Assembly: GCF_006094275.1 (NCBI RefSeq)
Contig: NZ_CP034412.1
Coordinates: 1,178,001 to 1,242,000 of the forward strand
DNA from: Glutamicibacter creatinolyticus
GTDB lineage: Bacteria; Actinomycetota; Actinomycetes; Actinomycetales; Micrococcaceae
DNA length: 64,000 nucleotides
Reading direction: 5' to 3'
The notes beneath the pieces are model-generated. The model was not told the DNA's origin. It searched no databases and saw nothing but the letters and a program-made list of their open reading frames with translations. The position numbers and the translations under genes were made by a program. Positions 14,875 through 40,681 of this stretch are shown here, piece after piece; the first letter of the stretch is position 1; each line of letters begins with the position of its first letter.

Positions 14875-15216
14875 ATGCCCCGTTCTAACCGTCCCCGCCG
14901 CAATGGAAGGTCGCGCAACGCCACGTCGCGCCAGCCTTCCGGACCGCCGCAGTATGAGGAGGACTGGGTCGAACGGGCCCGTTACGGGGTGGTGCGCCTC
15001 CAGGATGCCCCTGATGGGCAGTGGCATGTGCGCAAGATCAGTCCGCTGTCCGCGTCGAAGACCTACACCTGCCCGGGCTGCCATCGGGTGATCGGCGTGG
15101 GGGTCTCGCACCTGGTGGCCTGGCGGGCCGATCACTGGTCCGGCGATGACGCCTCGGCGGCGGCGCGGCGGCACTGGCATGAACGGTGCTGGGAGATCCG
15201 CTCCTACCGTTACTGA
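14875..15216 (+). CDS. Conserved actinobacterial zinc-binding-type protein
   Basis: A 113-residue basic protein divergent from nucS. The N-terminus is Arg/Asn/Ser-rich and probably disordered (residues 1-30). The rest contains [11 protein letters not shown] and, about 40 residues later, HWHERCW, a Cys/His set that could bind one zinc as a small HNH-like or ribbon-like fold. Similar proteins are found near nucS in related actinobacteria, often labelled ATP/GTP-binding without evidence. CATGAT at 14863-14868 leaves only 6 nt to the ATG, so the mRNA may be leaderless. Function unknown. Confidence 0.7.
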
Positions 15217-15279
15217 TGGTGTTTGTGGAGTTCCTGCGCACCATGGCCTTGTGCCAGAATGAAAGCGATGCCCGACATC

Positions 15280-15366
15280 ACGGCGGTGGGGCCCGCCGTA
15301 CCCAACCTCGCACCCGTTGCGACAACGGTCCCTACCTCAGCAGCACCACTGTGCCCGAAAGGTAGG
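15280..15366 (+). promoter_or_regulatory. Candidate fluoride riboswitch with SD-sequestering platform
   Basis: A P1 stem 15280-15286/15293-15299 carries a loop whose GGGGCC (15288-15293) can pair with GGTCCC at 15327-15332 (one G-U pair). A further stem TCGCA/TGCGA lies at 15308-15312/15318-15322, and CTAC follows at 15332-15335. This is the arrangement of the crcB-motif fluoride aptamer. The 3' edge, CCTACCT (15331-15337), is also perfectly complementary to AGGTAGG (15360-15366), the ribosome binding site of the ORF at 15375. Aptamer folding would therefore free the site, an ON switch. It lies upstream of two crcB genes. The fold is inferred by eye. Confidence 0.7.
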
Positions 15367-15374
15367 AGATCCAC

Positions 15375-15477
15375 GATGAGCTTGACACTTTGCAGCCCCG
15401 AATATTCCTCGGCTACCAGGCGGCGGATATCCGCGCGCCATGCACCGTTCGCCCATCCAGTGGGGGAGAAGGCATGA
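15375..15477 (+). CDS. Possible 33-codon leader ORF before crcB1
   Basis: An ATG-initiated reading frame of 33 codons preceded by GGTAGGAG, the ribosome binding site that the riboswitch platform can mask. Its TGA overlaps the crcB1 start (ATGA at 15474-15477). The peptide (MSLTLCSPEYSS...) shows no recognisable domain or membrane helix. It may exist only to carry riboswitch control over to crcB1 by translational coupling. It could also be chance, because crcB1 has a good ribosome binding site of its own inside this ORF. Confidence 0.35.
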
Positions 15478-15974
15478 ATTCCACGATGCCGAAGCCTGCA
15501 CGCACACCACACTTAGCCCGCCTGGTTCCTTTGATGTTGGTTTTTCTTGGCGGGGCGCTCGGCACAGCCAGCCGGCAGGGCCTTGCCCTGCTCTTCCCGC
15601 CGGTGGAATCGGTGCCGTACACCATCCTTGCCGTCAACGTGCTCGGCGCCTTCCTGCTGGGACTGCTGCTTGAGTCCCTCGCCCGGCACAGCACCGAACA
15701 ACGCCGGCACCGGGTCTGGCGGCTGCTGGTGGGGACCGGCTTCATGGGCGGGTTCACCACCTACAGTGCCCTGGCCGTGGACACGGCCCTGCTGTTGGGC
15801 GGGAACCGCCCGCTGGCGGGTGTGGCCTATGCACTGGGCACCATGGTGCTCGGTTTCCTGGCGGCGGCCGCCGGAATGATCCTTGCCGCCACGATCCGGC
15901 GCTCCAACACCCGGCATGGACGGCCAGCCAGCGTGGAGTCAAATAGGTCCACCGAGTCGGAACGGGGGCAGTGA
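15474..15974 (+). CDS. crcB: Fluoride channel CrcB/Fluc, first subunit
   Basis: A 166-residue four-helix membrane protein that exports fluoride by passive, highly selective transport. Conserved family features are GGALGTASRQG in helix 1, VNVLGAFLLGLL in helix 2, and GTGFMGGFTTYSALAVD at the helix 3 break, where the central sodium is bound. The N-terminus (about 18 residues) and C-terminus (about 25 residues) are longer than in its partner. ATG 15474 is chosen for GGGGGAGAAGG just upstream. The next gene encodes a second, shorter copy, so the channel is probably a two-gene Fluc pair. Confidence 0.92.
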   Translation: MNSTMPKPARTPHLARLVPLMLVFLGGALGTASRQGLALLFPPVESVPYTILAVNVLGAFLLGLLLESLARHSTEQRRHRVWRLLVGTGFMGGFTTYSALAVDTALLLGGNRPLAGVAYALGTMVLGFLAAAAGMILAATIRRSNTRHGRPASVESNRSTESERGQ

Positions 15975-15975
15975 G

Positions 15976-16353
15976 ATGGATGTGATCCAGTTTGTGCTCT
16001 TGGCCCTGGCCGGGGGACTGGGGGCCGTCAGCCGCTTTGTGCTGGTGGAGTGGATCGCCGTGCGCTGGCGCGGCACGCTGCCGTGGGGCACGATCCTGAT
16101 TAATCTGAGCGGATCCCTGGTGCTGGGCCTAATCACCGGGCTGGCAATGGGCCACCTGCTGCCCGAGACCTGGCGGCTGATCCTGGGCACCGGGTTCCTT
16201 GGCGGTTACACCACCTTCTCCACCGCCAGCGTGGAAACCGTGCGCCTGCTGCGCCAGGGCCGGGTGCTGGCCACGCTTGGCAACGCGCTGGGCACGCTGC
16301 TGGCCACGGTGCTCGCGGCCGGCCTGGGATTGTGGCTGGGCCTGGCGTTCTAG
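15976..16353 (+). CDS. crcB: Fluoride channel CrcB/Fluc, second subunit
   Basis: A 125-residue Fluc subunit with the same motifs as the upstream copy (GGLGAVSRFVL, INLSGSLVLGL, GTGFLGGYTTFSTASVE). The ATG lies one base after the crcB1 stop and GGGGGCAGTGAG provides the ribosome binding site. Paired crcB genes are common in Gram-positive bacteria and are thought to form antiparallel heterodimers. The stop is 5 nt from the end of the convergent AI-2E family gene, with no terminator between them. Confidence 0.93.
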   Translation: MDVIQFVLLALAGGLGAVSRFVLVEWIAVRWRGTLPWGTILINLSGSLVLGLITGLAMGHLLPETWRLILGTGFLGGYTTFSTASVETVRLLRQGRVLATLGNALGTLLATVLAAGLGLWLGLAF

Positions 16354-40243: not shown

Positions 40244-40681
40244 GGCGCGCCGCAACGGGGCGAGAGACGAACCGGTCCACCGCCTGACTGCGCTGTTGGC
40301 CTGCGGCCCCTGATGGGCCGTGCATTATGGCTTTGGTGTGCCTAGAATCTGGAATCCGCCTCATCCGTTGATTCACATGTCGTCACAACAGCGGAAGATG
40401 ACGGGATGTGACGCCCGAAATGTCGCCATAAGACTGATCATTGCAGCTTGTGACCTGCCCTTTGAGTCGTTCTCCATCCCTGCGCCAGACTGGTGGACAA
40501 CGAAGGCGATGACCTTCAAACCATCCAGAGCGGCCGAGAGATCTGGCTCTACGACGTCGCGGCAACCACCCATTGGGGCACGGTGCTACTGCCAGAAACG
40601 ATGGAGAATTTCCTGGCTGACCCCTCCTCAGTGAGGCCGCGCGGCCGGAACGCTTCGTCGCGGTAAAGACGAGGAGTACAC
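40244..40681 (+). other. 438-nt intergenic region, A/T-richer, with gene debris
   Basis: A short hairpin (40304-40309 with 40315-40320) lies just after the pRiA4b-like gene. From about 40320 to 40600 the DNA is richer in A/T than its surroundings, and contains the possible SMI1-like fragment described separately. Just before metN, GACGAGGAG provides a ribosome binding site. No S-box, SAM-IV or T-box fold for the met genes is apparent by eye. Confidence 0.5.
40466..40666 (+). pseudogene. Possible remnant of an SMI1/KNR4-like gene
   Basis: An open stretch, bounded by a TGA at 40463-40465 and a TAA at 40664-40666, reads LVDNEGDDLQTI, GREIWLYDVAATTHWG and PETMENFLADPS. This pattern (a D/G-rich turn, an aromatic strand, then a ...FxxFL helix) resembles the C-terminal half of SMI1/KNR4 (SUKH) proteins, often immunity factors. 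The N-terminal half is missing. GTG 40493 could start a 57-residue product, so a small intact gene is not excluded. Confidence 0.3.

Follow-up and report, generated by a model that had tools for sequence, protein, structure and literature searches.

The window analysed here, a 64,000-nucleotide stretch of Glutamicibacter creatinolyticus DNA (contig NZ_CP034412.1, positions 1,178,001 to 1,242,000 of the forward strand), carries two adjacent crcB genes that are preceded by a 33-codon ORF and a structured leader. An earlier note had read this leader as a fluoride riboswitch controlling crcB, with a 3' edge that can also pair with the ribosome binding site. We compared the note with the sequence letter by letter and found each of its elements: P1 (15280-15285 with 15294-15299) and its loop GTGGGGCC (15286-15293), the pseudoknot between GGGGCC (15288-15293) and GGTCCC (15327-15332; one G.U pair), CTAC at 15332-15335, and CCTACCT (15331-15337), which is the exact complement of AGGTAGG (15360-15366), with an ATG at 15376. 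The note had not included a second stem, P3, of 5 bp (15308-15312 with 15318-15322), which completes the aptamer. The features of the locus are listed below; here and throughout, position numbers within the aptamer follow the numbering of the T. petrophila aptamer.

15280..15299, + strand: P1 stem with the loop GUGGGGCC (15286-15293); two-sided changes in 4/6 P1 pairs among relatives
15286, + strand: G6, paired with C38 at 15323 where the textbook aptamer has A6-U38 (aptamer parse, covariation)
15288..15293, + strand: 5' strand of the pseudoknot, GGGGCC, positions 8-13 (parse, covariation)
15308..15322, + strand: P3 stem-loop, UCGCA/UGCGA (fold, covariation)
15323..15326, + strand: junction CAAC, positions 38-41 (textbook UGAU), with A40 at 15325 (sequence, parse)
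15327..15332, + strand: 3' strand of the pseudoknot, GGUCCC, positions 42-47 (parse, covariation)
15331..15337, + strand: putative anti-Shine-Dalgarno strand CCUACCU, which shares bases 46-47 with the pseudoknot and includes U48 (sequence, helix tests in leaders)
15333, + strand: U48, which pairs with A40 in the linchpin and belongs to the anti-Shine-Dalgarno strand as well (sequence; role from PMC8752731)
15343..15354, + strand: small hairpin GCAC/GUGC between the anti-Shine-Dalgarno and Shine-Dalgarno strands (fold; comparable inverted pieces noted by eye among relatives)
15360..15369, + strand: Shine-Dalgarno region AGGUAGGAGA, predicted to be masked by 15331-15337 when the switch is closed (fold, helix tests)
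15376..15477, + strand: 33-codon ORF behind the switched Shine-Dalgarno region, its TGA overlapping the crcB ATG (ATGA, 15474-15477) (sequence; no Pfam match)
15474..15974, + strand: first crcB, a Fluc-type fluoride channel (PF02537, 81.4 bits)
15976..16353, + strand: second crcB (PF02537, 88 bits)

Folding of the single sequence gave no telling signal (z -1.49; 14 of 200 shuffles folded as well). A 6-bp hairpin, CCGUUG-CGA-CAACGG (15314-15328, + strand), could form as a rival to P3 and the pseudoknot strand and appeared in one of two folds. A consensus scan of 15180-15480 found no sigma-70-type promoter. AGAATGA at 15256-15262 is a possible -10 element, 18-24 nt ahead of P1; words containing AATG were seen by eye in many relatives.

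The Rfam model scores the site below its cut-off and a subtype model recognizes it

At its gathering score, the Rfam fluoride riboswitch model RF01734 reported neither the site nor any other fluoride match in the window. In a relaxed search the whole model aligned to the site at 13.0 bits (E 0.41), whereas the gathering cut-off is 34 bits. Across the organism's own genome at E ≤ 10, RF01734 gave 12 weak matches, none of them over the cut-off and none at the site. The significant covariance match that the earlier note had asked for was thus absent with the Rfam model and present with a model of this subtype, R2: by score the site falls short of RF01734 membership, but P1 with its 8-nt loop, P3 and the pseudoknot between the loop and the 3' edge are all present. 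R2 was built from 16 relatives with the window sequence excluded, and it scored the site at 74.9 bits (E 7e-16), the sole significant match in the 3.3-Mb genome; the second-best of its 13 genome matches reached 19.5 bits (E 0.15), E-values of our home-built models being rough. Elsewhere in the window, the sole Rfam match at gathering score was a SAM (S box) riboswitch aptamer (40518-40607, + strand, 57.5 bits).

The relatives were first found by a structure descriptor and then by a covariance model, R1. Among 58 loci fetched by CrcB protein similarity alone, 29 had an R1 match with E below 1e-9, although 17 of these 29 went into R1; 20 of the 29 loci without such a match were checked with RF01734, which reported two. 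RF01734 passed its cut-off at none of 18 leaders, of which the window's was one, at none of nine further loci with G at position 6 (G6) and in only 4 of 40 genomes with R1 matches, namely three genomes with elements that have A at position 6 (A6) and genome G802, where the element concerned lies elsewhere; it never did so at a G6 site. The current Rfam family model misses this form, which is found in many actinobacteria.

Stems and pseudoknot covary in relatives

We counted pairs in an alignment of 70 R1 matches (61 distinct), covering P1, P3, the pseudoknot and 6-38; the aligning model had only P1 and P3 as pairs, the pseudoknot and 6-38 not being among them. In the 61 distinct rows, 98.0% of the cells held standard pairs, compared to 35.8-55.4% when the partners were slid by 1-3 columns, and 10 of the 17 pairs showed two-sided changes. 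None of 500 shuffles reached the observed value on any of five measures; in reading this, kinship can lift sequences above shuffles and R1 prefers its own consensus letters. By these counts the pseudoknot, which the earlier note had drawn for the window, covaries in homologous crcB leaders; pair 13-42, for instance, is U-A, U-G or C-G across relatives and C-G in the window. The alignment thus indicates that the stems, the pseudoknot and a tertiary pair are real and conserved. A40 was present in 70/70 rows and U48 in 69/70 (one gap). These bases form what PMC8752731 describes as the linchpin pair, and the window has both (A at 15325, U at 15333).

The aptamer belongs to a G6-C38 form

In the fluoride aptamer, A6-U38 is a reversed Watson-Crick pair and A40-U48 a reversed Hoogsteen pair (PMC11586693). 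The window aptamer lacks the conserved A6-U38 and has G6-C38 in its place. Among 122 candidate places, 86 were parsed, 4 were under the score limit and 32 remained unparsed; removal of duplicates left 67 distinct aptamers. The parse was blind to positions 6, 38, 39 and 41 and demanded A40 and U48, hence it is no test of the latter two. Pair 6-38 was G-C in 51 aptamers, A-U in 15, A/C in one and G/U in none. The candidates were supplied by R1, which leans towards G6-C38, and by RF01734, which leans towards A6-U38; as R1 picks up A6-U38 elements too, mixed forms should have surfaced. Another 27 loci with an RF01734 match, 18 of them above the cut-off, were put through the parse as well: 16 were parsed, with A-U in 14 and A/C in 2, and 11 were not. 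The A6/C38 elements L181, L220 and L222 have one loop and junction in common.

C38, C41 and the wobble G11.U44 were found in 51/51 G6 aptamers, while the A6 aptamers had U41 in 15/16 and U11.U44 in 9/16. The differences at 6, 38, 41 and 11-44 travel with the subtype and, being correlated by descent, may amount to one or a few evolutionary events. tRNA offers a parallel in its Levitt pair, likewise tertiary and of reversed Watson-Crick geometry, in which G15-C48 and A15-U48 replace each other; that RNA is a different one, and the analogy extends only to the tolerance of the exchange at 6-38.

Compared to RF01734 as represented by the T. petrophila and B. cereus aptamers, the G6 elements share P1, the 8-nt loop with UG, the pseudoknot 8-13/42-47, the AACC segment, P3, A40, U48, the UAC edge and the place before crcB and enolase genes; they differ in G6-C38 for A6-U38, the CAAC junction for UGAU and G11.U44 in 51/51. 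The A6-type switches of the same family that Rfam does detect (L094-L096, L098, L099, L101, L102, L104 and L118 among others) resemble the G6 elements in that positions from 46 onwards pair with the Shine-Dalgarno sequence, but they have A6-U38, a UGAU or UAAU junction and mostly U11.U44. They were seen before crcB and, in L094, before a His_Phos_1 protein resembling phosphoglycerate mutase.

G6 and A6 elements occur together, ahead of different genes, in genomes G802 (L155, L180), G364 (L149, L181), G032 (L182) and G173 (L184); in G802 the genes are enolase and crcB. A6-type elements were also seen before other genes; the ORFs behind the L181 and L184 elements carry MutS domain V. One could speculate, with rather little confidence, that G6-C38/C41/G11.U44 is a distinct functional subtype that stays separate from the A6-U38 form because it is tuned to another fluoride concentration or rate, and that genomes with both forms ahead of different genes use two thresholds.

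The 3' edge of the aptamer pairs with the Shine-Dalgarno sequence

The expression platform was examined in those 66 leaders, of G6 and A6 type, whose downstream sequence was long enough, the helix being defined as contiguous pairs from C46. A helix of at least 6 pairs was present in 56/66 leaders, compared to 12.5% for base-shuffled downstream sequence; in 53 of the 56 a start codon lay within 14 nt. The helix from C46 was missing in 10/66. In 24 leaders the anti-Shine-Dalgarno hexamer was other than CCUACC, and 19 of these still form the helix; here the leader's own strand did better than the consensus strand in 17 and tied in two, and in no case was it worse. Across leaders, pair 49 occurs as A-U, G-C, G-U and C-G, pair 50 as C-G, U-A, G-C and U-G, and pair 51 as C-G, U-A, U-G and G-C.

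With 100 base shuffles for each of the 66 leaders, no shuffle equalled the best helix of 7 leaders; 1-5 shuffles did so in 30 leaders, 6-20 in 16 and more than 20 in the remaining 13. The window's leader lies in one of the first two groups; in 29/66 leaders over 5 of the 100 shuffles did as well as the native sequence, so that taken singly the helix is often not rare. Native downstream regions did better than 60% of foreign ones, a weak test as most leaders have one common anti-Shine-Dalgarno strand. With 12.5% of shuffled sequences giving at least 6 pairs, a single 7-bp match is weak on its own, and it is the helix across leaders, together with the covariation of its partners, that goes beyond chance.

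The earlier note had proposed that the two pairings exclude each other. This agrees with the bases they share (15331-15333) and with the covariation of the Shine-Dalgarno helix in relatives: the helix takes up 46 and 47 of the pseudoknot and 48 of the linchpin pair, so that helix and folded aptamer cannot exist at once. The predicted competition goes further than the note had it, as it extends to U48 of the A40-U48 linchpin pair. When 15326-15338 were held unpaired, the fold energy rose from -38.2 to -26.0, a cost of about 12 kcal/mol; ViennaRNA does not score the pseudoknot, and this value therefore gives no more than the size of the gap that aptamer folding, ligand and order of transcription would have to cover.

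A transcriptional platform was also considered and rejected, the sole terminator-like site in 15180-15480 being on the - strand. The translational platform agrees with the near-absence of transcriptional fluoride switches from Actinomycetota given in PMC13273304. According to the same source, the transcriptional switches of B. cereus and T. petrophila likewise have a platform that takes the pseudoknot strand; their rival structure is an intrinsic terminator, in contrast to the Shine-Dalgarno helix here.

Downstream genes

That crcB is the target, as the earlier note had it, is borne out by the two crcB genes downstream (PF02537) and by crcB near most G6 aptamers of relatives; judged by position alone, these two crcB genes would be the fluoride-resistance genes under the switch. 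The same type of leader stands upstream of crcB in Brevibacterium, Gordonia, Kocuria and others. Using a home-built HMM, we found crcB within 1.6 kb of 44/51 distinct G6 aptamers, in 42 of them with two strong matches. The other seven precede Usp, enolase or MFS transporter genes: enolase lies behind L155, L188 and L190 (Pfam) and L185 (N-terminal sequence only), Usp behind L139, and MFS transporters behind L170 (a weak match) and L182 (after a short ORF). Enolase and pyrophosphatase are fluoride targets often found under fluoride riboswitches (PMC11139923).

On a Micrococcus luteus plasmid (L198, 2498-5060) the element (73.3 bits) is followed by usp, phosphoglycerate mutase, crcB, crcB and diphosphatase. 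A Clavibacter phaseoli plasmid (L201, 2498-5060) is arranged in the same way, except that no gene is listed where the mutase would be. Judged by gene content, both plasmids carry a fluoride-tolerance operon under the switch.

In the window, the ATG at 15376 stands 6 nt from the switched ribosome site (15360-15369) and opens the 33-codon ORF, not crcB; the product of this ORF had no Pfam match. Among relatives, the start codon served by the switched site is in many cases that of crcB itself or of a Usp-like protein (Usp was Pfam-checked in L133 and L139 only). Script-picked short ORFs at the switched site were seen in L039 (13 codons, overlapping the crcB GTG), L056 (16), L151 (30) and L182 (43), and the 33-codon arrangement is a minority among leaders. 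The window's crcB is probably reached by translational coupling from the 33-codon ORF; this is uncertain, as the arrangement is a minority one and crcB has its own purine-rich site near 15460-15470. In a CrcB tree, the CrcB encoded at 15474-15974 sits on a long, unplaced branch apart from the CrcB of most genomes of the genus. Replacement of crcB by transfer would fit this.

Distribution of the G6 form

Of 396 sampled genomes from the order, R1 at E ≤ 0.01 matched 51, of which 36 were sequence-confirmed as G6, 4 failed and 11 weak ones were left unfetched. The 36 confirmed genomes represent 17 genera, with half of the 36 genomes belonging to one genus. In the sample of 396 genomes from the phylum, 24 matched, with 9 G6 (one weak, L170), 4 A6 and 11 of neither form, which means that an R1 match close to E 0.01 is often a false one. 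Several of the species matched had gone into R1 itself, and these counts are not independent of the model. RF01734 passed its cut-off in 19/396 order genomes (apparently the same draw), and none of these was among the 36 G6 genomes. Within Glutamicibacter, the motif was present in 2/18 genomes, that of the window included, and crcB in 15/18. In Streptomycetaceae, an Embleya plasmid (61.4 bits) and a Streptomyces nigrescens plasmid (62 bits) carry the element. Phage records gave no match.

DISCUSSION

Taken together, the leader is real and conserved and is built like a translational ON switch of the fluoride class, in a variant subtype; the sequence evidence makes it highly probable that fluoride gates the ribosome binding site of the 33-codon ORF and, through it, crcB. 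In the mechanism we propose, 15280-15335 would be a fluoride aptamer of the G6-C38 subtype and 15331-15369 the platform through which it controls translation. In the absence of fluoride, CCUACCU (15331-15337) would pair with AGGUAGG (15360-15366) and hide the ribosome binding site; this closed state would consume pseudoknot bases 46-47 and the linchpin U48 and so could not coexist with the folded aptamer. In the presence of Mg2+ and fluoride, both the pseudoknot and A40-U48 would lock, the Shine-Dalgarno sequence would be free and the 33-codon ORF would be translated. Ribosomes ending at its TGA would restart at the overlapping crcB ATG to make CrcB channel subunits, which would let fluoride out. 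The ON direction, with fluoride freeing the ribosome binding site, is what we infer from this architecture.

Fluoride is very probably the ligand, given the neighbouring genes: crcB pairs, enolase, phosphoglycerate mutase and diphosphatase. The bases by the fluoride site (6, 38, 39 and 41) differ, so that the affinity or even the ligand could differ. We see a slim chance that the same fold with its altered pocket (G6, C38, A39, C41) senses another anion or another Mg-anion complex: the pocket-adjacent bases differ as a set, with C38 and C41 in every G6 aptamer, and variants with an altered ligand occur in other riboswitch classes (PMC7266159). Against this, the known structure holds fluoride by Mg2+ on backbone phosphates (PMC8752731, PMC11586693), and the genes, namely crcB near 44/51, enolase, phosphoglycerate mutase and diphosphatase, are those expected for fluoride.

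It seems about equally improbable that the element is an ordinary fluoride riboswitch that has drifted under the Rfam threshold and belongs to no coherent subtype. Fold and platform are indeed common to A6-type elements, and A6/C38 intermediates exist (L181, L220, L222). However, the G6 set is homogeneous at C38, C41 and G11.U44 across all 51 aptamers and spans 17 genera of the order sample, and G6 and A6 elements share a genome in G802, G364, G032 and G173. Least plausible of all is a conserved element for a regulatory protein or another mechanism that resembles the aptamer by chance, which would suit the low RF01734 score but not the covariation of P1, P3, pseudoknot and Shine-Dalgarno helix or the in-register aptamer match that includes A40, U48 and the AACC segment.

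Among the matches listed in open-licence literature, titles and the opening parts of abstracts contained no description of the G6-C38 form, and it is likely new to the literature. Streptomyces cattleya is said in PMC11139923 to use riboswitches extensively, the form being unstated. A 2026 set of 1901 fluoride riboswitch sequences had an Rfam-based start (PMC13273304), and surveys begun in this way probably overlook a large share of the actinobacterial branch. With the exchange of a tertiary pair next to the ion site, nature has run an experiment on how this pair tunes fluoride sensing.
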